Below, piece by piece: positions 5,686 through 63,962 of a DNA stretch of 64,000 bases. Source of the DNA: Phytophthora quininea (taxonomy: Eukaryota > Oomycota > Peronosporomycetes > Peronosporales > Peronosporaceae); assembly GCA_011947345.1 (NCBI GenBank), contig JAAVTG010000697.1:310001-374000 (forward strand). Direction: 5' to 3'. The notes below the pieces were generated by a model, which saw nothing but the letters and a program-made list of their open reading frames with translations, was not told the DNA's origin and did not search any database. The position numbers and the translations under genes are program-made. How positions within the stretch are numbered: position 1 is the first letter of the stretch; the number at the start of each line of letters is the position of its first letter.

Positions 5686-7449
5686 CTAGTGGCGAGAAGC
5701 GCGGCTCGGTCGACGAGTCGACCGTGAGCCCCCAGGGTGCCCCTGATCAGCCCGATCAAAAGCGTCCACGACGTCAGGGCAGTCTTGCCTTAGAGGCACC
5801 TCGTATTCCCACGAGTTCTGGGAGTGAGGGTAGCCCCTCCACTTCGCCAGATACTGGGTATGACCCTTACTTCGGCGGCGTGCTAGAAGACGCTCCACGG
5901 GATAGTGGAGGTCACCGTGCTCATCGAGCAGCGCCGGAGGTGGGCGATGGTCGGATGGTCGATGACCATAGGAATCCGATTCCTGGCTCGCGCTGGGCGC
6001 GTCAGTCGGAGGTGTCAGCCATGCTGCACCGTGTTCGCTCGCTGCGGGGAGAGCTCGCTCGCCAGACACGAGACGTCTGGGAGACGTTTGATCGCTACGA
6101 TCAAGATCTGACGGATCTGCAGCAGCGGGTGGAGTGGTTCGAGGCCCCGCAATCGATCTCCGATCGTCTTCGCGCCCAGGAGCTAGGGCTCGCGGAGCTT
6201 CGGGGTCAACTGACCGGGCTGCAGCAGTTTGTCTACTCAGCGTTGTCGGCTCAGGAACCGGCGGCGCCAGCGCCTCTGCACTCACCCCCACGGGGTCCTG
6301 GTATGGCTTCAGCAAGCCCACGTAGAACACAGGATGTGTTCGCATCTTCGGTGGGAGGTTTAGCGTGTATGTAAGATCCTTCTTGGCCACGACCTTGAAC
6401 GGTCCAATGAACCGTGGTCGGAGTTTCGTCTTGAAGACGGCAGATACTGCATGTGTAGGCAGGTTCTTAGCGTTTAATAAAACAAGGTCCCCGACCTGGA
6501 ATTCCACCATATTGCCTCTGCCTTTTGCATCAGCTTGTTCCTTCTGAACATCTTGGCTTTCAGCCATCGCATCACGCACACTGCGTAAGACGCTTAACTT
6601 CGTTGAGAAAAGGTCATCGACTTGCTTGCGCACCGCAAGAGGACTGACATCAGCAAGCTCGGGAGCTGTCCCTCCCCACCAAGCCCGTGGCCACGAAGTG
6701 GTAGGGAAAGGGGTCGCGCGGGTGCGCTAAGCCGTTCACGTAGAACGGAGTGAAGCCTGTAGAGGCATGCACTGCATTTTTCAATGCAAACTCGACAAGC
6801 GGGAGCATAGCGCTCCACCGATTCGGAGTTTCAGCGCACACACTGTGCAAGACGTCCTCGACGACGCGGTTGACGCGTTCGGTCTGACCGTCGGTCTGCG
6901 GGTGATCCGCTGTGGACATATCCAGTCGTGTGCCTAGCACCTTGAAGACGGACGTCCAGAACCTTCCCGTGAAGCGCGGATCACGATCCGAGACGATCGT
7001 CTCCTGCAGCCTGTGCTGAAAGACTCGAACGATGAACAGCGAGGCTGTACCCTCTCCATCAATGGAGTCCGGCACCGCCGCTAAGTGAACCATCTTGCTC
7101 AATCGGTCAACAAAGACCACAATACCCGTGTTGCCTACCGAGTCCTTCGGCAGACCAAACACAAAGTCCATACTCATGGACTGCCAATACCCGCTGGATA
7201 CTGGCAAGCTCGCCAGCGGCGCCGCCGCATGCGGCGCGGGTTTGACCCGTTGACACATCTCACACGTGCGCACATATGTGCTGACCCACTTGTACAGCTT
7301 GGGCCACCAGTACAGGGAGCTCACGGAGCTGTAGGTCTTCTCGCAACCAAGGTGGCCGCTCGTGGGAGCGTCATGAGCCTCGTAAAGTATCCGATGCTTG
7401 AGGTCCTCATCGTGAGGCACCACGACACGAGGAGGATCATCCAGACCAG
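5686..7449 (-). CDS. A' integrase with C-terminal chromodomain
   Basis: C-terminal part of Pol: inserts cDNA into the genome. In order: an HHCC zinc-binding block (HRILYEAHDAPTSGHLG, then CEMCQRVKP), a DDE core (MDFVFGLPKD; VSDRDPRF; DGQTERVN, all three acids present), a GPY/F-like region, and a chromodomain (YPVERLLARRRSKGHTQYLA, WRGYPHSQNSWE). The frame breaks once near 6650-6633. The chromodomain defines it as a chromovirus-type Ty3/Gypsy and may target chromatin marks. The Arg-rich tail after the chromodomain ends at 5686. The 5' boundary is the solo LTR at 7450. Confidence 0.9.
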
Positions 7450-8286
7450 TGTGGTGTAGGAATCCACTGAACTTTCGCTAATGTAGCAGCGAGCTTCCGC
7501 ACACAACAATACACCTTCCCGATCGTCAGGCGAATGTTGGTCATGATCTGAAGGAACCAGATCCGACCTTGCCCGAGCCGGTGTGGCCTCCACTCACTGT
7601 CTATGCTGTAGGCAAATATAAACTGACGCTACAGGCAGGAGCTTTCGCCTGTACGTCCAAACACTCTCTCACACACTCCAAACCCAGTGGCACCAGCAGA
7701 CGAAGGTTGCCTAGTCCCGTGGACTCTCTTACAGGGGCGCCGGAGTATAACTCCGGTTGGAAGTCACGTTGGAATGCGACTAGCACTCCACACACAAGGG
7801 CCCTTTCGCCCAACACTATCAATAGGGTCAAGCCAAAATACACTCTAACTACCACTCTTCACTCTTGGCCTGACCAAACGAACACTCACTTCACGAAGGT
7901 CTGTGTTCGCTGGCAGGCATAATCCAACACAAAGGGCAAGGTGCTTACCTAGGACGCTTGGCCACTTGGGTAGTAAGGGGAAATACCTGCTCTGTTTGTA
8001 TCGCCCTCGCGGGCTCTTACTCTGTCTAAATCTACTCTTCCCGATAATTCTATACAAATATCAAGTGAAATAAGGTCGGTGCTAGCAGGGCCACTCATTC
8101 AGCCTCGCGACCAGACGAACCTTCGGAGTAGTGACCACCTCGGTATAGTGGCACACAGGTTAGCGATACCCTGAGGTTAACGAACCTTCGCCTGATCCTG
8201 GGATTGGCCCAAAATAGTAACTTGATTTCGCCAATAGTAGAGGTGATAGTTGGCTGCCGCGATCCTTGGAGAATCGCTACATCACA
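7450..8286 (-). repeat. Solo LTR of a D-like family inside A' pol
   Basis: 837 bp, TGTGATGTAG to ACCACA on the minus strand, flanked by the 4-bp duplication CTGG (CCAG at 7446-7449 and 8287-8290). It interrupts pol between RNase H and the integrase HHCC domain. The same insertion with the same flanks is at 26367-27200 in element A, so it predates the separation of the two copies. Confidence 0.85.
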
Positions 8287-9858
8287 CCAGTACTGTACTA
8301 CAGCAGGCCGCCCTCGCAGGCGTAGCGATGCAGTCGCGCGCGCAAGCGCCCAGACAGTTCTGTCTTCGAGTCTTTAAACTCCTCGCTCCCCAGAGCGCGC
8401 AGCAATGCGACGCAGGACTCGTCCTGTGCATACGCTGATCAGATCAAATCCGTCACCGACGACTTCACCATCGTGACATGAGAAAGCTCATAGTCCGGCC
8501 GGCGCGACAGCGCATCGGCCAGGACGTTCTGTCTGCCAGGCTTGTACTTCACCTCGAAGTTATACTCCGCAAAGAAGGAGAGCCAGCGGTCCATTATCTG
8601 CGAGAGGTGAGGCAACAGTGTTGCAGTGCGTAGTGACGCATGATCCGTGAAGATCACGAACGGCTTAGAGCCGAGCAGGTGCACCCTGAACTTGACGAGA
8701 GCGTACTTCATCGCAAGTAGCTCCTTGTCGTGAACTGGGTAGTTCTTCTTCGCAGATTTAAGCAGGCGAGACTCAAACGCGATCATGCGTTCACGCCCAT
8801 CGACGTCCGCTTGTAGCAAAGCGCAGCCGATGGCAAAGTCGGAGGCGTCACAGACGACACTGAACGGACGATCAGGGTCTGGCAGCGCCAATATCGGTGC
8901 CTGCAGGAGGCTCTCCTTGATCTGCGCAAACGCAGCCTCGTGATCAGCACGCCAACACCAGTCCGCATCCTTCTTAAGGAGATTGGACAATGGCCTAGCC
9001 AGCTCAGCGTAGTTCTCGCTGTACTTGTGCAAGTAACTGGCGAGGCCAAGCCACTTGCGAAGGTCCTTCTGGTTCAAGGGAACCGGCCAGTCCACTATGG
9101 CCTTGATCTTGGCAGGATCTGCCCGCAAGCCACGCTTCCCAATGAAGCAGCCGAGGAAGGGAATCTCCTCGGCGCCAAAGACACACTTGTCTACGTTGGC
9201 ATACAACTTGTTCGTGCGCATGCACTCGAGCACCGCTCGCAGATGCTCAACGTGCATCTTGACGTCAGTCCTTCCGTGCTCAGCACGACTATGGACGAAG
9301 ATGTCGTCGAAGTATGTCTGTGCATACGCCCGATGGGGCCAGAAAAGCTGCGTCACCAGACGATTGAACGTCGCTGGCGCGTTCGACAGCCCTAGGGCAT
9401 AACGAGCCACTCCCAGACCATGCCGCTCGGGGTGCTCACCGCTGTCAGCGGCACATCGCTCGCTCGCATGAGCAGTTGGTAATAGCCATCGACTAGGTCG
9501 AGCGCGCTATACATGGTACAACAAACCATGTTGTTCTGAAGAACATCCTTCCTAGGAATCGGCGTCTGCACCGGGATCGTGGCCGCGTTCAGCTTATTGA
9601 AAGCATGAACAATGCGCCACTTGCCGTTCGGCTTTCTGACACAGAACGTCGGCGTGGAGTGCGGAGACTTGCTCTCACGCACAGGCCCTGCCGCGTGCTT
9701 AGCACGGAAGAAGGCGTCAATGACGTCGCACTGCTCCTTTGGTAAGGACCACTGGCGTGTGACGCAGTACTTCGTTCCGGGAACCAGGTCAATTTCATGA
9801 CGGACCCCTCGGTCAGGAGGGAGGCCACTAGGTGGCTCCTTTGAGACGACGCCTCCAT
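8287..9858 (-). CDS. A' reverse transcriptase and RNase H
   Basis: Copies RNA to DNA and degrades the template. RT motifs: TPTFCVRKPNGKWRIVHAFN, YSALDLVDGYYQL, LGLSNAPATFN, the catalytic TYFDDIFVHS, and the connection block WLGLASYLHKYSENYAELAR. RNase H follows: VVCDASDFAIG, YPVHDKELLA, FVIFTDHASL, and ADALSRRP at the end. A one-base loss at about 9392 after WEWLVMP breaks the frame, and a TGA at about 8439 follows VTDLI. Both lesions recur at the same places in element A. Confidence 0.92.
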
Positions 9859-40950: not shown

Positions 40951-41104
40951 CTGCGTGTGCGGAAGTCGGTAACAGTGCGCTCACTGCTAGTTGATGGTCC
41001 AGACCACCCCGAACCACACCTCACGATCAACCATGACTCGCGGGTCAGACTTAGCCAGGACGCGCCATCATCACGAAGCCTCCAGGATCTCGTCACTGGG
41101 ACTG

Positions 41105-41298
41105 TGTAACGAATACTTAGCAGTTACGTACGTTTTGGCTAGGATTGTAATTATTAGAACATTTAGTAAATATGCAGAGAAAGGCAGTTCGTGGGAGCAA
41201 AGCTCTTAACTGCCCGAACTGCGAGGACGGCAACCTCATCACTTTCCAATTTGGCCGCCCTCTCAAAGACCTCGCCTGCTTCCTTCATTTTCGATATA
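41105..41298 (+). repeat. 5' LTR of element C
   Basis: 194 bp, TGTAACGAATACTTAGCAG to TTTTCGATATA. Ends in TA, not the usual CA. Followed after one base by TGGTAGCACTTG, a possible primer site. Confidence 0.88.
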
Positions 41299-41598: not shown

Positions 41599-42505
41599 TG
41601 TGGTGTAGTAAATTCGACAGACCCCTAGCCTAGGACTTCCTAGTCTAGATTCAAGGCGTGGAGTCAGCTAAGTTCGACAGCCAAGTCTAGGTGTGCATGC
41701 GGACTTAGTGGACTCGGCTCAGCGGGACCAAGTCGACGAATTGGTCAGGCAACTTGGCAAGCGATTATACATAGTAAAGGACTTGAGCGGCCGAGTCGCC
41801 GCAGAGTTAGAGTCAGCAGGCGACGAGATCTTTGGCAGCGTTGGCTTCGGTCCGAAGAGTCGCCGGTGGTTGCAGGCTGGACCCAGCGAGGGGTCGCAGC
41901 TGATTCATTTCATTAGATATTTGTAAAGGATTGACTAGGATTTAGTATAGGACGGCTCGAAGGGCCGCACGGAGATAACAGATAACAGAGCAGAATTTTT
42001 CAAGTCTACAACAAGCGCATACTATCCGGTAAGTCCCTGCGCGGGGCTGGAATATGTCTGCCGGCAACACCCGAGAGGCATAGCTTGTAGGGTGTTGTCT
42101 GGTAGCGCCAAGAGAGCAAGGTCGGCCCGGTGTTGGGCAAAGTTCCGCCAAGCGCGCTCTACAAGTCTCGCTAAGTCCGCGAGCCGGTACGCCCGTCAGC
42201 CGGGGTGCCGTAACTCTTTCAGTCGGGAAGCCTTTGCTCCTGGCGACCTGTAAAAGCGCGGTCTGCGCCGTCGTCCATCCTTTGGTGGATGGCACAGGGT
42301 ATTCAGAGTGACTGAGGCAGCTCAGCTGAGTCGTGTGGCTGGCTTGGAAGCGAAGCACCGGCGGGAACAAGACACTACTGTCCCGGCTGGGCCGAACCGC
42401 TAGGGGACCACCTAGCGCAGGCCAACAAGCGCCGACCTGTTCTTCGGCGTTGTTGTGTTTGTAGCTCATCCATATCTGACGGATTTTGTGTGTTGCTATA
42501 CCACA
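41599..42505 (+). repeat. 5' LTR of element D
   Basis: 907 bp, TGTGGTGTAG to TACCACA. Contains ATTAGATATTTGTAAAGG near 41913, AT-rich and possibly promoter-linked, though not proven. Confidence 0.93.
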
Positions 42506-42507
42506 AC

Positions 42508-42525
42508 TGGTGCCGCGACCCGGGA
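42508..42525 (+). other. Primer binding site of element D
   Basis: TGGTGCCGCGACCCGGGA begins two bases after the LTR. Its complement ends in CACCA and has a CCCGGG T-stem-like run, as expected for a tRNA 3' end. The tRNA is not identified. Confidence 0.7.
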
Positions 42526-42587
42526 ACAGGGTGTGCTTGTTTTCGTAGGTGCCATGTAACCAAGGTTCGAGCATTCAAGTGAGCAAG

Positions 42588-44893
42588 ATGGTTAAGGGGT
42601 CGAAATTACCGAGTGGAGGGAATCCAGCGACGGCTGTGGGTTCCCTACGCGCGAGAGCTGACTCAGCAAATGCGCCGACTACGGCTGCGACGGTAGCTGA
42701 GCCGCGCAACGCTCAGTTCTGGGAGGACGACCGCCAAGATCATGGGAGTGAAGGAGGTTACGATGATGAAGATGAAGAGAAAGCCGAGTACAGCGATATG
42801 AAGACGACCGCTGAGTTACTCAGGGAGGTCGATGAGCTGACGCTTCAAGTCGGCAAGATGAGTGCACCACGTCCTGTGGAGCGCAATCTTGCCGCTGAAC
42901 TCAGCGAAGGTGCGGACGACGATGATGATGACGATGCTCAAGGGAACGTCTGCCCCTTGTACCCAAGGCAACACGGAACGTTGACACGCCGAGGGCCAAC
43001 AGGGTCCTCGCGTTCCTCGGCGAAGAGATGAGAACGAAGAGCGAGTGGATGATGATGTTTGCCCCGGTGCCTATGGCGCAAGCCAAGTGGCCCGTGCTAG
43101 GACCCGAACTGACTCAGCCGGTGAACAGTACTGACATCAACCAGCTCGTGGAAGATACGGTGCTCCTTCTGAGAGCCATGGGCTTCAGCTGCACCAGCCG
43201 CCCAAACAGCCTACTTCTATCTGGGTGGAGCCTGTCACGAGCTGGCGCTGAGTTGATCCTATGGAAGCGTAAGCTGAGAGTTGCATTCGGGCTTGAGCGT
43301 GTACCCGGCGTCAAGCAGCCTGTTGCACGGCGCAAAGCCGACGATGAGTTCCCGGCTTTCACTGAGAACCCAGCTGAGGTGCCCCTGCTAAAAACACCGG
43401 AGACTCACAAGCGTGGTGTTTTCCGTACGACGGAAGGCACGCCGTACTTTGTCGACTCGCATATGCAGACACCCAAGCGCGACAAGTCGAGACGTGGTCG
43501 GTACGACCACCTCTATGACGCAGCCGATGAAGGTGAAGTCAGCGATGATGACGATGGAGCTAGCCAAGCTGACTCCAGAGACGACTATCAGTCGGTGAGA
43601 GGCCAGATCCGTCATCTCAGCTTCGATGATGACCGAGACTCGACACAGTATCTGGAGGTCTGCTCGCATTCCTCACTGGACAAGATTCCTGAGTTCGAGG
43701 GTAAGCGATACCGTGCTGACGCCTCGCTACAGTGGCTGAAACGCTTCATCTACGAGATGAAGGAGACCCGTATGCCTCAAGACTCGTGGTGCGAACCATT
43801 CTCGCTGAGTCTGGGTCGAGCCGCCAAATCCTGGTACCGCCAGCTGCCTAAGAAGACTCAGAACCGCTGGAAACTACATAGTGAGTCCTTCTTGGACTAC
43901 TACTGCTCGCAGTTTGACCAGTCGGCTCGTACTCACTATTACTTAGCAAAGTGCAAGGAGAACGAACCGGTGTGCGACTTCCTCGTCCGACTCAACGGAT
44001 ACGCCCGTACTGCCAAGCTCCAGTACGAGAAGGGCGGTTCGGATACCATGGAACATGTGGAACATTTTCTACTCAACTGTGGAGACGACGAGATAATGGA
44101 TCTCCTGTATCCACTCCAGCTGGACGATATCCACAAGGTGGAGAAAATCATCAACCGAAAGATGCTCGGTGAAAAGCGCAAGAAACAGCGCGATCGGGCA
44201 CTGCCTGGCCGCGGCCGAGACTCCCGTCGCGGTGAGTCGAGTTAGCGGAGTGAAAACAGCCGGCGAACTGACTCAACAAGGCGCTCGGAGTCCCGCCGAG
44301 ACGACCGCCGCGACGACGAGCGCGATTCACGCCGTGACGACCGTCGAACCTACCGCGACGACAGCCGGGAGCGCTGAGTGTCGTTCGCTGATGAGGTTGA
44401 CTCAGTAGGTGAGTCTACCGGTGTTCAAGGACAACCCAGCCAATGGTATGATTCGGCGGATGATAATAGCGACAATGAGTCGTATGCTGAAGCCGAGTCA
44501 GACAACAGCGATGACCACATAGACGCCTGAGCGTCGACCGACCGTCCAGGCAACTCAGCGACCCGTGGAGACCCGCTACACGCCCATCATAACTCAGCGG
44601 GACAGGCATTCCGAGGATTTGATCGCCGGGACCGCCGAGATCGTCGTAACGACTCGCGAGAGCGTCAACGCTACGGTCTCTGTGCTGCTTGTGGCATGGA
44701 AGGACACTCAGCCCACTTCCGCCGTAGACGGTGCAAGTTTTGCAAGCAGGTACACGAGGTGGGACAGTGTGAACTCTTCCAGCAGTATGAAAAGCTGGCT
44801 AAGTTTGTCCGCACTACAGTGGACAAGTCGACGGTCCCAGAAGACCTCCTAGATCTCATTTCGCCGAGAGATTTAAACTCGGAGGCCCACTAA
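42588..44893 (+). CDS. Element D Gag
   Basis: ATG at 42588 (MVKGSKLPSGGNPATAVGS), acidic N-terminal region with an Asp run (42915-42935), frame change near 42990, then a long ORF from 43028 to 44245 with a capsid-type core (SLQWLKRFIYEMKETRMPQD, KSWYRQLPKKTQNRWKLH, FDQSARTHYYLAKCKENEP). An Arg/Asp-rich tail (44250-44530) in several frames leads to a zinc-knuckle block at 44670-44790 (CAACGMEGHSAHF, CKFCKQVHEVGQC). The knuckle reads in frame only after a shift. Confidence 0.82.
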
Positions 44894-45265
44894 TAATGAC
44901 TGGATTGGATTATACCGGGCTGCCACAGTCAGCTGAACCTGCGGTTGAAGCGAATTTCGTATTCGCTTTTGTAGGGAAGCACAACGGCCCGAGAGAAGGA
45001 GTGTGGGGATCAGCCACGCTGAGTGTGAAAAGGATGATTATGGTGGTGGTTTAGATGGTGATGTTGGTGATTTTCACGATAGAGATGGTCATTTTCATGT
45101 TGGAGATGATGGTTTTGACGACGGTGACGGTAAACGTGACTGCGATAGCGACTGTAGCCAAGTCGCACGACTCAGCGACTCAGGGAAGATTATCGAGTTA
45201 TTAGCAGTGCGCTGAGTAGGCTCAGCCAACTCAGCAGGAGGCAGCAGGCGAAGGCAGTAAAATTA
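44894..45265 (+). other. Gly/Asp/His-rich gag-pro spacer of D
   Basis: One frame, 45003-45215, reads a low-complexity GGGLDGDVGDFHDRDGHF-type tract formed by TGGTGATG-like repeats, ending shortly before the protease. Possibly part of Gag-Pol; no domain seen. Confidence 0.4.
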
Positions 45266-45780
45266 TTGCCCGGTGAGCGCCTGGGATGGTGGTCAACAAA
45301 GAAATTTGACCGCCGGGTCCGTATGCGTGCACTCGTGATGGGTGCAGTGAATGACGAGCGCATGAAGGTCCTATTGGACACTGGAGCCAACGTATCGGCG
45401 ATCAGCGTGAACCTAGCGCATCGCTTAAGGCTCAAACGGCTCGCCAATACCGACCAACAGATAGATGTTTAAGGTATTGGTAAAAATAAGGTCGGCTCGA
45501 GCGCTAGAGTCATTGTGAAGGTCACGCTGGGCTGGGAAGTGGTGTATGAGTTTGAATTATGGATAATGCCACACCACGCCGGTGTAGACTTGATTCTCGG
45601 TACCGATGTTATGATTCTAGCCGGCATTCGGCTGGATCTGGACAACTCTACGGCTAAACTGCCCGACGAGGTGGTTGTACCGCTGATTAAGTCACGTAAT
45701 GATGAGGTTGGCCAAAACCCATACCGTAATCAAGTCAGTAATGGTCTCCATTTGCATTCAGCCCCGATTACATGCTAATT
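45266..45780 (+). CDS. Element D aspartic protease
   Basis: VLLDTGANVSAISVNLAHRL gives the DTG active site, followed after one TAA (45470) by GWEVVYEFELWIM and GVDLILGTDVMILAGIRLDL, the flap and ILG block of retroviral-type proteases. Preceded by GERLGWWSTKKFDRRVRMRA. Confidence 0.88.
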
Positions 45781-48243
45781 TTCGGCTCCAGCGTAAACAA
45801 CCGAGCGAGGCGACTCACGAGCTGTGGGTCAGGCGCTCTAAGGATTGGATTCCGACCGTGATATATGCTAAAAGAAGACCAGCACGCGTGTTGATCACTA
45901 ATGTGAGCGCTAAATTGGTCTGGAGCCCGGCACACTTCTCGGTGGTACAATGGGTGCCCATAGGTGACCTACCGCCTGATAATGGGTACGTCCGCCTAGC
46001 GTCGGCCAAATACCGCGACTGTCAGGTGCTGGCATATGAAGCAGCCATGGACAAAGCTTTATTGCATAAAGAAGAGCGTCTCTACACTGAGCGGATGGCC
46101 AAGCAGCCTCCAACAGTCGATCGGAGGCCGTATGAAGCCCCCAAAGGCGTACTTAAGAGAGAAAACGGCGATTATGTCGACGGCCACCGCGAGCTAACTT
46201 ATGCGGAGCGGAGGGAATGTCAAGAAGGGTCTAGAGATGCTAAAGCCAAGTTGGCGAGTTCTGATGACCCATCTATGAACGCAATAGTGGCGCCAGTATC
46301 GACTAAGCGGGGCGTTGACGATTACTCAGCGACTGAGTCAACCGATTCAGCGACAGCAGAGCTGAGTAATACTGAAAACATCTACGACGCGAGTGCAGGT
46401 GTTCGAGAAGCTGAACAAACCATTGAGAAGATGCCAAATTTCTTCGCGGACCCTCGTGAGCTGTGTACCCATTCGGAAGGCGACATGAACTCAGCTATGG
46501 TCAAATTGACCGCCGAGTCAGCAAGGGAGGTCAGTAAATGGGGTGAAGTCGATGTTAGCGATGAACCGCTAGCTCCTGACCCTGAAGAAGACCTCCGGCT
46601 ACGGTTCCTTGCAGCTTTAGCGGTGTGAGATGAGTCCTATGTCGTTTCCGGAGCTCCGACGAGACCGAACAGTCACAGGAGCCGGTGAGCGAGTATACAA
46701 CGTCAGGTAACTCAGCTGGGGAATTTTCTCAACCTCTAGACCCTGTTGAGATAAGTGCCAGAGTCGTTGAGTCAGTCCACAAAACTCGCAGTAGTGTAGG
46801 AGCGAGCAAATCAGCTGGTAAGGAAATTCCGGCCGAGGAAGTGGCCGCCAAGTCGAGTTACTTGAATAAAGTATGCCCTGGAGGTCGGCCTTCGCATACG
46901 GCATCCTACACGCGTGAGCAGTCACTCCAAACAGTCAAAGAGGCTAGCAGCCGGGCAGAGTCTCGCACCACCAGCGATAAAGCGTCTGGGGCGACTACTG
47001 AGTCCACCGACCCGGCCAAAACACCCGCTGAGCTCGAAAATACGGCCAGCGAGCTGTACCTCGACGACTATGCTCACGAACTCGCATTTTTGCCCGATCT
47101 TGCTGACTTCGAGCCCACGGTGCTTGACTATGACGGTGCTAACGTCAAGTCAGCAGCTCATACGCTCGGGCAGAAGCAACAATTGGTGGAGATGCTGCGG
47201 AAACACGAAGGGATTATGATCTCGAGTGGCAATGCACTTCCGCCGCCAGCGTACGGTATCGTGTGCAATATTGACGTACAGGGGCACAAACCGATCAAGC
47301 AGAGGGCTCGCCGAGTGCCGCTAAAGCACTTGAAGAAACTATACGAGCTACTCAAAGGTTTGTTGAGAGCTGGGTTGATCGCTTTCTCGAGCAGCCCATG
47401 GGCGTCGCCCATGGTCATTGTGCTGAAGAAAACGGCGTGGACATAAGACTCTGTATTGACTACAAGATGGTTAACGCCGTTACAGCACTTATGGAGTACG
47501 CGATGCCCCTGGTAGACGACCTACTGACTGAGTTGGAGAGCTACTTGTGCTTTTGCTCGTTGGACGCGGCCAGCGGGTTCTGGGCAGTCATGATGACTCA
47601 GCGAGCTCGCTGCATCTCAGCTTTCGTGTGTGCGCTGGGTCACTTTGAGTGGCTACGCATGCCGTTCGGCCTAAAGAACGCCCCGGTGATCTACCAGCGT
47701 CTTATAGACAACGCACCCTGGGGATATGTACGCCCCAGAGGCGGCTGGAAAGCGTTTGCCAAGCGTGTACGCCACGCCGAAGCTGCAGCAGCAGCTCAGC
47801 GACGGAGAACCTTAGCACAGCAGGGGCAGATATCCCCTTCAGTCGAGTCAGCAGCCGGTGGTGCAACGAAGTTCGAAGCCGACCACCGGGCCCTTGCTGA
47901 GTCGGATTCGATGCAGGAGTTGGTCAATGTCCCCGACGGTGACATGTTCAAAAATGGAGAGCTCGACGACTCCAAGCCGACTCCCATCTTCGAACGAAGG
48001 TCGTTCGTCGATGATATTTGCTTTGGTGAAACAACCTTCGACGAGTGCTTATCCACTCTGAACCGGGTGCTGACTCGGTTTGCCGAGTGCAGAATCAGCA
48101 TCAGCTTCACAAAGAGTATCTTCGTCCAGCAAAAGGTGGAGTTTTTGTCGCATGAAGTGACATCGCATGGTATCGCGGCGAATGCTAAGAAGCTGACCGC
48201 CATATCTGAATTGCCGTTCCCAAGTCGAAGAAAGGCATGCTAG
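45781..48243 (+). CDS. Element D pre-RT region and reverse transcriptase
   Basis: A 900-base linker (45699-46628), Ser/Glu-rich, then RT: PIKQRARRVPLKHLKKLYEL, SSSPWASPMVIVLKK, frame change at an A run near 47440, DIRLCIDYKMVNAVT, FCSLDAASGFWAV, LRMPFGLKNAPVIYQRLID, then about 95 residues (47716-48000) rich in Ala, Ser and charged residues, then SFVDDICFGE with the catalytic Asp pair. In ordinary Gypsy RT that interval is about 15 residues. Ends VEFLSHEVTSHGI. Confidence 0.88.
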
Positions 48244-49735
48244 CCTTCCTTGGGGCACTCAACTACTATGGACGGTTCATCCAGAACTTGGCTGTGCATG
48301 GAGCAGTTCTCTATCAGCTGAAGGACACTGACTTCGCTCATGGTGGTGACCTCACTGCTGCCAAGTCAGCTTTTGCTGCGCTGACGCACAAGGTGGCGAA
48401 CGCACCCATTTTGCGTCACTTCGACTCAGCGAAAGAGGTGCACGTAATGCTGTTCGCTAACGATTGGGCGTTGAGCAGTACCCTGATGCAAATGCACGAC
48501 GACAAACTCCATCCAGTGCGATTCTGTGGGCGAGTCCTCAAGGACAATGAATACAACTACCACCCAGCGGAGAAGGAAGTATTGGCACTGTTGCAGCTAT
48601 TGAAGGTGTGTCATACACTTTTAGCAGGGAAGACTTTACACGTCTACACTAGATTTTCGACTTTGGAGTGGGTGTTCACGTCCCTGTACGGACGTGCAGT
48701 TAGCTTCGCGGTACTGCTATCACCGTACTATTTGAAGGTTAAGCGAGTGCGTGAAAGCGACGTTGAGTTCACCCAACTGCTCCAAGCGTCTATTACGCCG
48801 CACATTAGACTCGACGAGTCGCTAGCGCGCATTGCACCACCAAGTAAGAACTCAGCGACGGTCCGGATGGACCCAGAGTTGCTGTATGCCCACGTGCCAA
48901 GAAACTTTGACGGTTATGTAGTATCTTTTGACGGTTCAGCCAAGACCGAAAAGGACGGTAGCTATGGAAGTTGCTCATGGATATTGTGGCGCCTTCCTTT
49001 GTGGAATATTGAGATCGCTGCGAGTGCGCACCTCTCATCAACCACGGTCAACATCGCTGAGTACACTGGCATGAATAACGGTGTACTAGCGGCTCTAGAC
49101 CGTGGGGTGACCGACTTAATTATAGTTGGTGACTCTCGGCTTGCAATCCAGCAATCCATGGGGGTGATCGCATGCAAGAAGGAGGCACCGCAAGTTGAGT
49201 TGGCTCGCCATAAGAAGTTGAGCAGAACATTTAATTCTGTGCGATATCTGCATGTAGTGCGGTACTATAATGCTGCCGCTGACTCCGTAGCTACTGAAGC
49301 ATTGGAAAATCAAGCTGGCCGAGTGATACTGAGCGATGCCCGAAAGAAGGAGCTACAAACGCTGAATCGGATAGCCGAGATCTTGTACGCGGACTCTGAC
49401 CGCAAACCGAAGGCAGACGACCCAGCCACGATCTTGGTGATGACCCGTAGTCAAGCTAGCCGAGTCCCAGTGGGACGAAGAACGGCGCCGAGCCCAGCTG
49501 ACTCCACGGGACATAGGGCAGTCAACCCAGCGGACACTGAATACGAGTCAGCGGGCAAAACCCCGGCAGTACCCCATGTCGACGGCCAAATCGATCTTGA
49601 AGTGGACGATGATCGAACGCCTAGCGCTGACGATATTGACCCAGTAGTCGTCCAAGCAGAACGACGCACCGAATATCGAGGGCACAAGACGAAGAGGCTA
49701 AGTGGGCCGACGTTAAAGCGGTCCTAAGAGGTGAG
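48237..49735 (+). CDS. Element D tandem RNase H domains
   Basis: One ORF (48237-49727). Residues 60-170: a Ty3-type RNase H (FDSAKEVHVMLFANDWALSS, NYHPAEKEVLALLQ) in which the usual TDAS and TDH motifs are altered (FANDW, YTRFSTL). Residues 228-360: a second, archaeal-like RNase H (VVSFDGSAKTEKDGSYGS, TVNIAEYTGMNNG, DLIIVGDSRLAIQQ, RYYNAAADSVATEAL) with all four acids (D232, E275, D299, D349). This suggests the first domain became a connection and the second does catalysis. A second RNase H has been described in some oomycete Gypsy elements. Confidence 0.88.
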
Positions 49736-51401
49736 ATTGACAAGATGACTCACCGTCGAGCCTGCAATGCAGGCAAGATCGCTGAGTACGAAGTGGTCAG
49801 CGAAGACCGTCTTTGTACTACCAAGAGGAGCGGGGAAGCTGAGACGAGTCCAGCGAACCTGGCTTGCGGCTAAGAATAGTCACGCCAACCACTATAATTG
49901 ACGAGGTCCTTCACAGTTGCCACAACTCCATTGAAGGAGGTTACCAAGCCATCGTGAGGGCGTTTTACCGGGTGAAATCTGAGTACTACTGGATCGGACT
50001 CTATGCCGACGTACTGAAGCATGTCCAGGCATGTGAAGACTGTTGTACCAGCAAGAATAAGCCTCAGCTGAGAGGATTCTCGCCGGGCAAAATCGTGTTC
50101 GACAGACCGTTCCACATAGTGTCGATGGACTTCGTGATTCCGTTGCCTAAGACTCAGCGGGGCAATACTGCTTTGCTCCTTTTCCAGGACCACTTCACAG
50201 GGTTTGTTATTGCAAAGGCAATGAGCGATACTGGGGCACTGGAAGTAGCCAAAGCGTTCAAAGAGTGCATCTTTCGCCGGTATGGGGCACCAACTCAGAT
50301 CCGACACGACCGAGACCCGCGTTTTATGGGCGAGGTCTTTCAAGCGTTCGCTGAGATGATGCAGTCTAAGTCTCGAGCCACGCTGAGTTACTGGCCTCAA
50401 GCCAACGGTCAGCAAGAACGCTCAGTCAAGACCATGATCCAGACGGTACGCGTCTACGTGGAAGATCCGCTGCAAGCTGATTGGGATGACATAGCCGAGC
50501 GGATGGTGCATGCCATCAACAACTCGAGGGATACGACTTGGCGTGAGACGCCGTCATACTTGCTGTACGGATGGGACCCCAGTCAACTCTCAAGGCGATG
50601 ACATCAGTGGTTAGGAAGGATCCAGCGGGCTCAGCAGACGCTGTTCAGTGGCGCCGCGAATTTAACAGACAACGCGAAATTGCCCTGCAGCTGGCTAAAG
50701 AATATCAGCTGAAGGAGAAGGCCCGACGAGCCGAAAAGCACAACGCCAAGTTAAGCCGGAAAGAGCAGAAAGCTATGCCCGACTCAGCAGATGATTTGTC
50801 GACAACAGCTCCAGAGGATGCCGAGTCGACAACACCGCAACACAAGTCCCTCTTCAAGGAAGGTGACCATGTCTGGCTGTTCATGGAGCGCGTGAAGCCA
50901 GGTCTAAAGAAGAAACTGGCCCACCGCTGGCATGGGCCCTTCCGAGTGAAGAGGAAGGTGGAAGAATTTGCGTACGAGCTCGAGCTGCCCGACAAGAGCG
51001 GGTACCGGTTCTACCCGGTGGTACACGTTTCTCGATTAAAGGCCGTGACAGACGTTGGGGAACGGCCAACTGTGCCGCTCGCCGATGACCTGGATGAGAC
51101 CCAGCGGTTTGACTTCGATGAGGAACTCCTCCCTGAAGATAGTTGGGAGCCAGACGCTGACTCCAACAATTACGAAGTTAAGGCTATACTCGACGACCGT
51201 GTTCCTCGGTCCACTGGGACGAGTCGAACTCAGCGTGAGTTTAAGGTCAAGTGGTTTGGCTATGACGAACCGACTTGGGAACCGTTGGCAAATCTGTCAT
51301 ATGGAGGCCTCCTTTTAATAACTTGCGGCAAAAGAAGCGCGAGAATTGTCTGCAGATGGTGCAAGTGGCAGACGAGAACTAACAAATGCACCATATGTTA
51401 A
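49736..51401 (+). CDS. Element D integrase with chromodomain
   Basis: HHCC block (LHSCHNSIEGGYQAIV, CEDCCTSKNKPQL), DDE core (VSMDFVIPLPKTQRG, IRHDRDPRFMGE, NGQQERSVKTMI) with the three acids intact, GPY/F region (FKEGDHVWLFMERVK, HRWHGPFRVKRK, FYPVVHVSRLK), and chromodomain (YEVKAILDDRVPRSTGTSRT, FKVKWFGYDEPTWEPLANL). Frame changes near 49730, 50590 and at the extreme C-terminus (51300). Pol ends at 51401, 230 bases from the stop of the opposite-strand gene. Confidence 0.9.
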
Positions 51402-51631
51402 CCACCGCTGAGTGAAGAGCTCAGGCCCAGCGGAACGGATAAGTTACTGCACTCAAATTGCATGGATATATATTGACGGAATGATGAAGCCGGCAGAACA
51501 CCGCCAAGTCGACACCAGTTACGACTACGACCAAATACCAACTTGGATTTGGCGGGAGGCGAAGGGGCTGCGACTCGGTCGGCGAGTGGAGAGAGGCAAC
51601 ATTGGAGGAGAGAAAGAGCCGCCACTGTGGG

Positions 51632-54600
51632 TTACTCTTCCTCCTCCTCCTCAGCGACTTCGTCGACCACTTGCTCCTCGACGTCATCCTCAAAGATGAC
51701 CAGTCCGTCACGGTTGAATGGAGTCGGAGCGCTTGGAGAAAGATGAGGTAACTCAGCTGGTTCCTTCTCAAAAAGAGGCTCCACCTTGTCCTCGATAGAA
51801 GCTACCTCAGGTTGGTCCAACCCACGAGCCGTGAACAACGGGAACTCTGGATGGAGCGATCGGAAGCAGCGGTTGCACGGGTGCAGCTCAGGCGCAGTCA
51901 ACCACCAAACCCGGTGTGGCTCATCCTTATCGGTCTGCTCCGCCTCCACAGCCCAGTCTGCACTCAGCGGGAACCAAGTCAGGTTAGTGGGAGATGCAAA
52001 TGGGACCGAAGGTGAGAAATACAACTCAGCATCCAGAGTTGGCTCAGGGCCAGCTGAGTCTTCAGCGGTGGCGCCCGCATACAGAGCCTCATACAACTCG
52101 TTCAACATCAGTCTCAGCGCGTCAGCTCGGCCCTTCCGGGTTTTGCTGTAGCTCTCCCTGAGGTCGAACACCAACGAGACATCCGAAACGCTGACACTCG
52201 GATTGTTGTCTGGATGCAGACCGATGTACACACTGTAATCGATGATCCAATGAGTCCGCTCTCACATGGCGATTTACAATGGACGTGAGTCCTCATATGC
52301 TCCAGCGAGGCTCACCCAACAATCGGAGACGACCTCAGCGAGGTTCGTCAAGGGAGTTTCCCCGCCGCGATGCGCCTCCAACCGCCGTTCGACGTTGGGA
52401 CCCATGAAGATAGGGACCCCATTGAACTCAGAAAAGACCGGTAGCTGGGATGCTGAGTCGACAGGATGTCAGCGAACGCACCGATTCCGGCCGGCGAACA
52501 CTTGGTCCCAAGGACACACATCTTCTTCTCCACACGCTCCTTCACAACCCGAATGGAATAGGCCTCCAGCAGAGTCTGCCAGCAGAATGCTGACCCAGCA
52601 TGGAGGAAGGGTGGGTGACGCCACACCCTCATTTGGGGAGAAGCCTTCGACGCCAAGCTCACCGCCTGAGCAGCTCGCGCGCCTTACTCTTCGACGGCTT
52701 AGTCGTTGTGGTGGACTTGGCCTTCGCTTTCCCAGACGCTGACTTCGACGACTTGCTGGACGAGACCACCGGAGGATTCAGAGGAGTCGGCGACCCTGGC
52801 CCAGCCTTAGACGACTTGGCTGCCGTAGTCGATCTGGCCTTGCTAGACGTTGTTAACTTCGACGACTTGATAACCAGCGAGACTGATTTGACGGAGGAAC
52901 CGAAACCTTCTTCTTCTTAGAGTGCGCTGATCCAGAGCCTAGAGATGACTTGACTACCGGCTGAGCCTTCGCAGCCGCTACCGGAGTCTGGGACGAACGA
53001 GCGGAACGCGACGCCGACTGGGGTGCAGTAGGCGCGGTAGGCGTAGGCGCCGCGGCTGGCTTGCATGTCGCTACTCGAACCGAAGCCACCGCGGATTGGG
53101 ACTGAGTCGGCTTAGACCGACGCAGTGGTAATTGCCACGTAAACGCTTAACAGCGGGAGTCAGAGTAACAGGCTTGGCAGTCGAACGGACCTTCTTGGAG
53201 GAGGAAGGCTCGGCAGCCGAGTCGACCGACGACGATTTGCGTTTCTGCGAACGTGGAGCCTTGACGACTGAGTCGACTGATGACAGTTCACGCTTGTTCG
53301 AACTCGAAGGCGGAATCGACTCCACTGAGTTGGAGCGACGGGTAACTGAAGCCGATCGATGGGATAGTTTCCCTCCGAGGCCGTTGCTCATGTTGTCGTC
53401 CGACCCAGCGTCCTCTTCTTCGGCCTCCCCTTCATCCTCCTCCGATTCTGCAACACTGCCACCATCATGATCCGAGCCGGCAGTCGACTCCTTCCCTGAT
53501 GAACCCGGAATAGATGTCGGCGAGGCCTTGGACGACTTGACGACAGGCTTGTGCCGAGGTGACGGAGTCGGGCGCCGGGTGATGGCACCCAACGCTTCAG
53601 CACCACTCGTTGCCAGATTCTGGAGCTGAATACGCGCGATCTGGATGGCGTCACGAGCAGCAGGGCGAGTCAAGCGACCACGTGACCCAGTTGGGGGCAT
53701 CGAGAAGCCCAGCGACGACGATGCTGGGGGAGTCGGAGCCGCCGACTCGGAGAACTCGGCTGAAGACTGGATGGACCGCCGAGATACTGGAGTCAACATA
53801 GCCGAGTCCTTCAACACTGCGTGAACAGTGCGGCTTGATGTCGAAGGCGCAGGGGGATTCTACAGGGACAGACTGAGGTACACCCAGCGAAGCCAAAGTT
53901 GAAGCTGAAGCTGCAGACGTCGATGAAGACATGGTGCAGGCAGTCGCTGAAGGCCGAGTCGAATCCGAAGACTGGACAGGGCCACGAGCGATTGACTCCG
54001 TCTCCTCATCTACGTCACTGACCTCCAGGGACAGCGAGTGACTTGGTGAGGGAGGAGCCGAAGGCCGAGCTTGATCCGACGCCAAGTTAGCTGCAGGCGA
54101 GTTGAAGCTCAGCGAGCGCCCGACAGAATGAACTGATGAACCGGCACTAGACCGAGTCGCGGGCGAAGCAGGAGCTGAACGGGTGACCCCGCCGGAGAAC
54201 GAGGCCCACCGAGCGTGATCACTGGGCTGCAAGTTGAGACCGATGGAATCGGTGAGGGTCCAGACTGGACGACGACAGACTCAGAGCCGGAAGTCGTAGC
54301 CATGGTCCCCGCCGAAACTGGTTGGGAAGTCGCTGGAGCCAGCGGACGGCGGATAGTTACGCGAATCTCCCGAGTCTCACCCGGTTCTGCTCGCATCCGA
54401 TCAGGCCACATCTCCTCGACCTGGCGAACCAGTCGATCCTGAAGCTGGAGGTCGCGAGGAGACAGACCAGGCATGTCAAGCCCAGCGGCCGCAGCAATAG
54501 CTGCAGCTGGGTCTGACACCTGCAAAGTCATCCCAGAACGCTTCACCTTGTTGCTGAGGATGGAGATGTCCTTGCGGAGCCGCTTGATAGTCGCCTTAGC

Positions 54601-56275
54601 AGCCTCCAGCTGTCGAGTAGAACCGCCATCCTGGGCAACAAGGATAGCGTCCTGCATCAAGCGGAAGTAGTTCGCCGACATCTGCTGGCAGGTCGCCAGC
54701 GCCGCCTCATACTCAGCGATCTCTTCTCTTTGTGCCAAAATTTGGGCATTGCGCGAAGCAACAATCTTGTGCAACCCGTTGACGGTGTCCTGGTGGATAT
54801 CAACATGACGGTATGCTTCGCTGACGCCGTCGCGAGCTGAAGCTTCGTGACGCAGGATAGCAGCGTGATAACCCGCCAACAGACTCTGCTGACTCTGCAC
54901 AGTACGTCGAGCTTCATCACGCTCGTGAACGGTGACCGCCAAGTCATGCTCCAATGAAGCAACCTCGGTAAGCGCGGAACGCAAATGTCGATCGAGCTGC
55001 AAGTTCTCTTGAGTCAGCTCAGCGACACACTGCTGAGTAAAACCCAAGTCAGCAGGGGAGCATGGCGGAGAGGGTACAGCCGTTTGCAGCTGATTCAGCA
55101 GGTCTCTGGCGGTCGAAGACCGCATCAACTCACGACGAAGTACATCGTCGTGAGGGAGCAGAGGCCGAGTCAGCGAAAATGCAACCAAACGAGACAGGTC
55201 ACGCTCAAACCGAGCGCGGGACGCAGCTTCGTGAGCCAAGAAGTCACGCAGGCACAGAGAAGCAGAGTCGAACCCACCGTCAGAAGCTGGTACCGTCGAG
55301 ACCCACTCGGAGTCAGCAGCGTCGTCAGGAGGAGTCGCAGACCCAGTCTTTCCTCCTGCTCCACGGCCACCGAGCTCGGCGAGTGCGACGGAGTGCGGGG
55401 ACGCATGGGCGAAAGCGACCTAGCGTCGATAACCGCATTCTCAGCTCTCTCCCTACTGTGGCGACGGAGTATCGATCGCAGCTCTAGCTGAGCAGGCCGA
55501 CGCGACGGCTTCCATGAACGCGGATCGCACCTACAGTTCAGCGAGAGCGGCTCAACGACCTCCTTGGCTCGACACGCAAGAAACGAGTTCAAATGGTGCG
55601 GCAAATGGAGAGGCGGCGAGTTGGGAAAACGCGGGCCTCCAGCCACGCCAACATCAGGGTCCAGCAGCGTAGGATGGTCTGGCACCGGACGCAGAGCGAG
55701 CAACTGAACAACCAAGACTGAGTCAGTGAGATTTTCCTGAGGTAAGGGACGGCAGATCGATTTACCGCTGTTGGGCCAGTAATGGGATTCCGATCTCGTA
55801 GCATAGACGGCGGGAGCGGGGCCGCGCTCGAAGCAGTCAGTGGGTCTTCGCTTGGAGGAACTTCTCCAGGCTCGCGCTCTGGGTATTCAGGGGAGCCAGA
55901 GCCGTCAGCACGGTTGACGAAGACCCGCTTCCGCTGGACGGCAGGAGTCAGCGAGGTAACTTGGCCAGTTGAGCCGTGAGCGTTCGGAGGTGAACTTGGA
56001 GCAATCGGCGCGACCGAGTCTGCCTGTGGGACAGCACCACTTGGCTGCGTGCACTCAGCAACGGCAGCGACAACACTCGAGGCTGGCGGAAGCTCAGCCG
56101 AGTCTGTGGTGGAGTCTTGAGCTGCAAGGGAACCAACTGGGCAGCTCTCCGACGAGTCAGCGCTCTCATCAACGCGACGCAGAGCTTCCGGCTGCGCGTC
56201 TCCGCAGTGTTCTTTGTGTGAAAGGGAGCGAGCCTTCGCACCCTCAGCTGCTGGAGACGAGACAGCGGACGACAT
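51632..56275 (-). CDS. Large antisense gene between pol and 3' LTR of D
   Basis: About 1,548 codons on the strand opposite to pol, tail to tail with it and starting 208 bases inside the 3' LTR. ATG at 56275 (MSSAVSSPAAEGAKARSLSH). Segments in order: Ser/Pro-rich N-terminus with LTPAVQRKRVFVNRADGSG; an LPHHLNSFLACRAKEVVEP region; a long coiled coil at about 55014-54528 (ENLQLDRHLRSALTEVASLE); Ser-rich part; an acidic block near 53480-53380 (EEDEGEAEEEDAGSDD); nuclear-signal-like SQKRKSSSVDS and KKVRSTAKP; a Lys/Ser/Thr-rich, H1-like tract at 52892-52680; a C-terminal region (FNGVPIFMGPNVERRLEA, WIIDYSVYIGLHPDNN) ending in a Glu run. About seven frame changes and two stops near 52270. No known family. 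The sense strand has only short ORFs here. Confidence 0.65.
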
Positions 56276-56483
56276 AGACTTGTCCACACACGTGGAATGA
56301 GTGCGTGGACGCAGCGCATGAGCCGAGCGAGCGGTATTCAGGGGCCTTACCTAGCGCAAAGTCGGCGGTGTGGATGGAGTTAACTTGGCAATGGGATTCC
56401 GTGGACTTAGCGATTGGTGGAAATGTGAGAGCACGATGGGTCATAACACTCGCCAGCCCGGCTCGTATCATGACCGGGGCAGT
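56276..56483. other. Spacer and polypurine region before D 3' LTR
   Basis: Non-coding in both directions as far as I can see. Contains CCGGGGCAGT just before the LTR as a weak polypurine tract, and would hold the 5' end of the antisense gene. Confidence 0.35.
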
Positions 56484-57390
56484 TGTGGTGTAGTAAATTC
56501 GACAGACCCCTAGCCTAGGACTTCCTAGTCTAGATTCAAGGCGTGGAGTCAGCTAAGTTCGACAGCCAAGTCTAGGTGTGCATGCGGACTTAGTGGACTC
56601 GGCTCAGCGGGACCAAGTCGACGAATTGGTCAGGCAACTTGGCAAGCGATTATACATAGTAAAGGACTTGAGCGGCCGAGTCGCCGCAGAGTTAGAGTCA
56701 GCAGGCGACAAGATCTTTGGCAGCGTTGGCTTCGGTCCGAAGAGTCGCCGGTGGTTGCAGGCTGGACCCAGCGAGGGGTCGCAGCTGATTCATTTCATTA
56801 GATATTTGTAAAGGATTGACTAGGATTTAGTATAGGACGGCTCGAAGGGCCGCACGGAGATAACAGATAACAGAGCAGAATTTTTCAAGTCTACAACAAG
56901 CGCATACTATCCGGTAAGTCCCTGCGCGGGGCTGGATTATGTCTGCCGGCAACACCCGAGAGGCATAGCTTGTAGGGTGTTGTCTGGTAGCGCCAAGAGA
57001 GCAAGGTCGGCCCGGTGTTGGGCAAAGTTCCGCCAAGCGCGCTCTACAAGTCTCGCTAAGTCCGCGAGCCGGTACGCCCGTCAGCCGGGGTGCCGTAACT
57101 CTTTCAGTCGGGAAGCCTTTGCTCCTGGCGACCTGTAAAAGCGCGGTCTGCGCCGTCGTCCATCCTTTGGTGGATGGCACAGGGTATTCAGAGTGACTGA
57201 GGCAGCTCAGCTGAGTCGTGTGGCTGGCTTGGAAGCGAAGCACCGGCGGGAACAAGACACTACTGTCCCGGCTGGGCCGAACCGCTAGGGGACCACCTAG
57301 CGCAGGCCAACAAGCGCCGACCTGTTCTTCGGCGTTGTTGTGTTTGTAGCTCATCCATATCTGACGGATTTTGTGTGTTGCTGTACCACA
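56484..57390 (+). repeat. 3' LTR of element D
   Basis: 907 bp. Differences from the 5' LTR that I could find: ACAAGATC for ACGAGATC, GGATTATG for GGAATATG, and CTGTACC for CTATACC. Followed by target copy CAAG. Confidence 0.93.
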
Positions 57391-63630: not shown

Positions 63631-63767
63631 AGAGGCACCAGCCCCTCCCGTGCCAAGCGTCATACGAAAACAAGGCACTTTGGGGTCAGTCCCGACCAGC
63701 AGCCACCTACTGAGCAAATTCCGAAATGGCTGGCGAGGACGCGGACGACTCTTGCGGGATGGGTGAG

Positions 63768-63962
63768 TGTAACGGATACTTAGCAGTTACGTACGTTTTG
63801 GCTAGGATTGTAATTATTAGAACATTTTAGTAAATATGCAGAGAAGGGGAGTTCGTGGGAGCAAAGTTCTCAACTGTCCGAACTGCGAGGGCGGCAACCT
63901 CATCACTTTCCAATTTGGCCGCCCTCTCAAAGACTTCGCCTGCTTCCTTCATTTTCGATATA
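63768..63962 (+). repeat. 3' LTR of element C
   Basis: 195 bp, TGTAACGGATACTTAGCAG to TTTTCGATATA, preceded by GGGATGGGTGAG as polypurine tract and followed by target copy GACTG. The remaining 33 bases of the window are flank with no feature. Confidence 0.9.

Follow-up and report, generated by a model that had tools for sequence, protein, structure and literature searches.

An antisense gene family between pol and the 3′ long terminal repeat of Chronos-like retrotransposons, with a decayed copy in Phytophthora quininea

The window analysed here, 64,000 nucleotides of contig JAAVTG010000697.1 of the Phytophthora quininea assembly GCA_011947345.1 (positions 310,001 to 374,000), contains a full-length Ty3/Gypsy element, element D (41599-57390), bounded by two long terminal repeats (LTRs) of 907 bp each with 3 mismatches between them. 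By domain order, rather than by a reverse-transcriptase tree, element D has the layout published as Chronos of oomycetes, with a dual RNase H and a chromodomain after the integrase; its second RNase H is read as archaeal-type (aRNH), as judged by its position and the look of its sequence rather than by a tree. On the minus strand, from 56275 down to 51632, lies a decayed gene in eight successive open pieces with seven frame changes between them (frames 0, 2, 1, 0, 1, 0, 1, 0 in N- to C-terminal order). The longest open reading frame (ORF) of the sense strand across this region spans 168 aa. The last antisense piece stops 230 bp from the end of the oncoming pol frame at 51401, and the first ATG lies about 208 bp internal to the start of the 3′ LTR at 56484. 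A preliminary description had reported this coding-like region with its seven frame changes, the short sense ORFs, the tail-to-tail placement with pol and the start just inside the 3′ LTR, all of which are confirmed.

Searches across the 87-Mb assembly, in which copy counts are lower bounds (part of the candidates was scored), revealed many relatives of this gene. The coiled-coil piece finds matches in seven other contigs, at 90% identity in contig C301 and 26-35% in the rest, in frames open for up to 548 aa. The C-terminal piece accounts for 34 genome rows including itself, a few being two pieces of one copy; the others are 31-44% identical, and some sit in frames of several hundred codons. 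Contig C78 has an antisense frame of 920 uninterrupted codons, with about 230 bp separating its end from that of the oncoming pol frame; the coiled coil of this copy is encoded by a separate, overlapping ORF in another frame. C301 carries the closest copy: it alone backs five of the eight pieces of element D (all but the coiled-coil piece and the two halves of the C-terminal domain), it preserves the ATG together with the roughly 200 bp of DNA that separate this codon from the LTR, and from gene start through LTR it shares 92% DNA identity with element D over a 1188-bp stretch. No promoter could be shown at the gene start from the sequence of this 5′ region. The C301 copy is itself split in two parts by a stretch of about 3.9 kb (L018, about 5804-9754), as if another element had inserted.

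The gene also has relatives in other species, although the preliminary description had recognised no homologue. The 920-aa frame of C78 as query retrieved 4 proteins, and one of these as query retrieved 62, for a total of 63. All come from Phytophthora, filed under eight species (P. cactorum, sojae, rubi, fragariae, ramorum, palmivora, fragariaefolia and megakarya); they measure 583-1179 aa, some being partial, and all are annotated as hypothetical proteins. At E<=0.001, with E values referring to the set of 63, the second half of the C-terminal domain of element D matches 53/63 homologues and the first half 4/63. None of the 63 is matched at that threshold by the N-terminal piece (55589-56287), the coiled-coil piece or the acidic-block piece, so the N-terminal two thirds of the element D gene are supported by copies from its own genome only. 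A profile search, which the preliminary description had suggested, aligned the C-terminal piece to a profile of 48 homologues with 97.9% probability (hhalign, E 6e-13).

Position and orientation are conserved across copies. Among the first 34 C-terminal rows, 25 stand tail to tail with a pol chromodomain match (24 distinct partners), with match ends 205-651 bp apart, and nine lack such a partner. A wider search added as queries two more antisense ORFs, L046 of C266 and L022 of C712, which lie downstream of pol in neighbouring families, took one chromodomain row per copy and counted tail-to-tail partners within 1.6 kb. A related antisense domain then appeared tail to tail at 70/81 pol chromodomain ends, 26 in class I, 15 in class II and 29 in class III, and on the same strand at 1/81; other copies do carry the frame, as the preliminary description had anticipated. 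These three sequence classes share the C-terminal domain, with profile scores of 46.6 (I-II, E 1.5e-5), 49.5 (I-III, E 9.5e-6) and 64.4 (II-III, E 2.4e-8) against maxima of 22.5, 24.1 and 19.2, respectively, in 40 column-shuffled controls per pair. At 29 more distant chromodomain rows the antisense domain was found at 0/29. An aRNH-related match lies upstream of 68/81 pol ends; 62 copies have both aRNH and the antisense domain, 6 aRNH only, 8 the antisense domain only and 5 neither.

Two loci show other arrangements. The only same-strand copy (G000:C534:116326-117225) has its C-terminal domain and chromodomain co-oriented, possibly by local inversion, and a rearranged copy (G000:C796:46899-48057) has fragments of the C-terminal domain on both strands within 1.2 kb and no pol match nearby.

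The antisense gene family is under purifying selection for protein sequence. The ratio of nonsynonymous to synonymous substitution rates (dN/dS, omega) was computed in the antisense frame for 34 aligned stretches between copies, and all nine stretches with dS > 0.25 gave omega values of 0.18-0.42. The longest, of 455 codons, has a dN of 0.165, a dS of 0.505 and an omega of 0.33, with 70/80/134 substitutions at codon positions 1/2/3; the two other forward frames of this stretch give values near 1, and one reverse frame mirrors the low omega but contains 24 stops. Within the same pair of copies, omega is 0.35 for pol and 0.39 for the antisense gene (C78-C561), or 0.25 for the integrase and 0.47 for the antisense gene (C922-C712). 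In comparisons of element D with more distant copies, synonymous sites have reached saturation. Identity in these comparisons is 46-90% for pol pieces and 42-43% for the antisense C-terminus in the cases that aligned, so most of pol seems to change more slowly than the antisense gene.

The protein encoded by the most complete relatives is roughly 800-1050 aa long. The longer homologues begin with a disordered N-terminus and a coiled coil; a long linker rich in Ser, Ala and Pro, which holds acidic and basic tracts, then leads to a C-terminal domain in which the stretches HPW, LWERRHW, RADRLR, LLEPS and QPWRNCW are conserved. The order of coiled coil, acidic tract and C-terminal domain recurs over three successive ORFs in the C266 element. 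The chromodomain of this element shares 48% identity with that of element D, and its antisense match to the family profile stands at 69.6% (E 4e-5). Basic clusters (5 of 8 residues K or R) are present in 36/63 homologues versus 9.1 in shuffles, and the motif K[KR]x[KR] in 48/63 versus 10.7. AlphaFold predicts that the coil forms a helix and that the C-terminal core is helical; local confidence is good but overall scores are poor. Fold recognition from these models returned no recognisable fold, and no family among the matches listed in Pfam scans accounts for the protein.

Conservation, position, orientation, coding constraint in the family and decay of the element D copy are directly established. 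On this basis we consider it probable that the element D region is a decayed copy of a true protein-coding gene of Chronos-clade elements, encoding a putative nuclear accessory protein. A large accessory-protein gene antisense to pol, in the slot between pol and the 3′ LTR, had been proposed in the preliminary description, and the genome copies, the C78 frame, the homologues, the omega values and the 70/81 positions strongly support it. An antisense promoter on the side of the 3′ LTR would drive the gene, and the gene product would oligomerise through the coiled coil, enter the nucleus and act there for the element, most likely by regulating element expression or the fate of element DNA on chromatin. 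This role is suggested by the coiled coil, by the basic and acidic tracts and by comparison with the antisense genes of plants, among which one is reported as nuclear with its own promoter (PMC7264820); the nuclear or chromatin link is thus one that we infer from sequence features and analogy.

Several observations weigh against this interpretation. The basic clusters occupy varied places in the homologues, some within the coiled coil, and the pieces of element D contain no basic cluster in the 5-of-8 window test. Moreover, the low dN/dS expected for the minus frame held where dS exceeds 0.25 and not throughout, as the remaining 25 stretches range from 0.25 to 1.01, nine of them at >=0.67. The comparison of element D with C301 gave 0.37 (coil), 0.53 and 1.01, 0.67, and 0.87 (N-terminus), and such young pairs by themselves do not demonstrate constraint. 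This is the pattern to be expected if constraint is old and copies have decayed once dead.

Alternatively, the antisense unit might act mainly as RNA, pairing with the sense transcript and feeding small-RNA silencing or self-limitation, with a minor role for the protein. The convergent matches of the first pairs examined are separated by 205-651 bp, so transcripts could overlap, and such a role has been raised for plant elements in a review (PMC7264820); however, constraint acts at the amino-acid level across classes and species, and an RNA role would not preserve a reading frame, which makes this alternative unlikely. We give much less credit to the chance capture, in one lineage, of a host gene or of another element's gene that is no standing part of the element. 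Such an origin would suit the lack of any Pfam relation found to gag or pol and the annotation of the Phytophthora homologues as ordinary genes, but not the same place and orientation in 70/81 copies across three diverged classes; furthermore, two of the nine C-terminal rows without a chromodomain partner are one C534 copy adjoining a reverse-transcriptase fragment. The slot between pol and the 3′ LTR would also befit a retroviral-type envelope or a second gag-like structural protein. The maxima of 19-residue hydropathy means range from 1.02 to 1.75 in the 63 homologues; five exceed 1.6 (1.64-1.75), borderline for a membrane segment, but the other 58 stay at <=1.57, which renders such a segment unlikely in most. 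With the gene on the opposite strand, a separate sense gag present and no env or gag model among the Pfam matches listed, this alternative is highly improbable. A chance or mirror open frame, for which the seven frame changes of element D might speak, is scarcely credible and was rejected, given the 34 genome rows, the 920-codon C78 frame, the absence of a recognised sense gene over the region and frames conserved at 26-44% identity and in cross-species homologues.

Chronos elements are Ty3/Gypsy elements of Peronosporales and Pythiales (Ustyantsev 2017, PMC5348765), described like element D with a dual RNase H including aRNH, a chromodomain after the integrase and two sense ORFs. The main text of that paper uses the words 'antisense' and 'opposite' 0 times, and its section 5 describes no opposite-strand gene. 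According to the same source, Chronos and Tat seem only distantly related, a single origin of aRNH elements not being fully rejected. A brown-alga paper (PMC12477816) names Chronos only as unrelated to its own elements.

Opposite-strand genes in the slot between pol and the 3′ LTR are an already known kind, in plants and in Boty of Botrytis, a non-plant element with an ORF antisense to gag-pol (PMC7264820) that we liken to element D by layout only. The same review describes antisense accessory genes of LTR retrotransposons as known mainly from flowering plants and as having no established function. Plant Retand elements share with element D a long region between pol and the 3′ LTR with a gene antisense to gag-pol; 97% of Retand clusters encode the TRP28 domain (PF04195) antisense, some of these ORFs have Smc-type matches and their function is thought to be regulatory (PMC11963269). 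The Retand polyprotein also carries aRNH (PMC6317226), as here. Element D has a chromodomain, whereas Retand and Tat are non-chromovirus elements without one. Maize Grande gene23, an antisense gene downstream of pol, is reported to encode a nuclear protein and to have its own antisense promoter (Gomez-Orte 2013, cited in PMC7264820); the element D gene resembles it in placement.

The comparison with plant Tat and Grande elements made in the preliminary description therefore stands for layout but not for domain content. At the sequence-profile level, PF04195 was not among the matches listed at E<=10 (6 proteins) or E<=1 (other scans), nor among the first 25 of 43 families listed for 48 homologues. 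The Retand and Grande antisense genes are apparently unrelated in sequence to the oomycete gene, and convergence is likelier than a remote common origin. We found no description of this antisense protein family or of its occurrence in the oomycete clade in the literature searched, which excluded most subscription journals. A comparison can also be drawn with HBZ of human T-cell leukaemia virus type 1, an antisense leucine-zipper nuclear regulator read from the 3′ LTR side; it concerns the way of working only, with no homology claimed to this different virus group. Antisense promoter and genes of human T-cell leukaemia virus are mentioned in PMC7264820 and PMC11963269.

An apparently unrelated protein fills the same slot in an oomycete clade as in plants. 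Since the slot is filled in 70/81 copies under protein-level selection, we argue that it serves a real need and is not a plant peculiarity. The findings link 63 hypothetical Phytophthora proteins to one transposon gene family and provide a comparative handle on function, as an antisense gene was probably invented independently in two clades that have the same extra RNase H. The antisense gene would be a further feature shared by plant Tat and oomycete Chronos, beside an aRNH thought to be acquired independently, and it is a tentative and rather doubtful idea that the pair forms a functionally linked package. If so, transcription from both ends would yield sense-antisense and RNA-DNA hybrids, the second RNase H and the antisense-coded nuclear protein would act as one package to cope with or exploit convergent transcription, and other aRNH-bearing clades, e.g., Archon, should carry an antisense gene too.

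The features of element D are compiled in Table 1. CAAG on both flanks is a 4-bp target-site duplication, and the stretch TGGTGCCGCGACCCGGGA directly after the 5′ LTR is by its look a putative primer-binding site. The near-identical LTRs make the insertion look young, yet genes on both strands are broken, the sense genes being likewise split over several frames in the ORF scan. Since long open frames occur in other copies of this assembly, indels do not pervade it; the breaks in element D may reflect either real decay or local sequence errors.

Table 1. Features of element D and of its antisense gene (window coordinates)
Feature	Coordinates	Strand	Remarks
5′ LTR	41599..42505	+	907 bp, TGTGGT...ACCACA; left flank ends CAAG
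Sense gag	43028..44245	+	PF03732, E 4e-5, exactly at curated cut-off
Aspartic protease piece	45266..45472	+	PF13975, E 1e-7
Reverse transcriptase piece	47398..48243	+	PF00078, E 6e-18
Gypsy RNase H, then second RNase H	48237..49727	+	second: PF13456, about 49017-49301
Integrase: H2C2 zinc-binding and rve core	49864..50601	+	Pfam
Integrase C-terminus: SH3_Tf2-1 and chromodomain	50571..51401	+	PF00385 about 51171-51299, E 8.6e-8
Gap separating the two convergent genes	51402..51631	.	230 bp
Antisense gene, C-terminal domain, second half, then acidic tail and stop	51632..52231	-	34 genome rows including itself; 53/63 Phytophthora homologues
Antisense gene, C-terminal domain, first half, other frame	52348..52662	-	4/63 Phytophthora homologues
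Antisense gene, Ser/Lys-rich linker piece	52853..53089	-	C301 copy 83% over 35 aa only
Antisense gene, acidic block and Ser/Lys-rich linker piece	53071..53817	-	C301 copy 72-86% in pieces
Antisense gene, Ser/Pro-rich linker piece	53651..54232	-	C301 copy 83% over 110 aa and 61% over 54 aa
Antisense gene, coiled-coil region	54109..55239	-	376 aa open, longest piece; matches in 7 other contigs, 26-90% identity
Antisense gene, N-terminal piece	55170..55715	-	C301 copy 76-86% in pieces
Antisense gene, N-terminus	55589..56287	-	first ATG 56275; C301 copy 82% over 230 aa
3′ LTR	56484..57390	+	907 bp, TGTGGT...ACCACA; then CAAG

On the antisense-coding strand of 51632-56287 there are 31 copies of the pentamer GACTC versus 8.7 in triplet shuffles, and they are not bound to one frame; GAGTC occurs 7 times versus 10.4. 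GACTC is also raised in gag-pol of element D (32 versus 14.1), more weakly in C301 (10 versus 5.8) and C922 (12 versus 7.5), and not in C78 or C266.

A direct repeat, 95% identical, lies on either side of element D (41104-41298 and 63767-63962), and more Gypsy-like ORFs follow downstream, beyond 57.3 kb; from these, element D seems to have inserted into an older LTR element. Elsewhere in the genome, aRNH matches recur regularly, about 5-7 kb apart, in G000 contigs C155, C382, C637, C775 and C85, a spacing that suggests tandem arrays of another aRNH-bearing element, perhaps of the U2-targeting Utopia type, a name given by analogy with PMC5348765.

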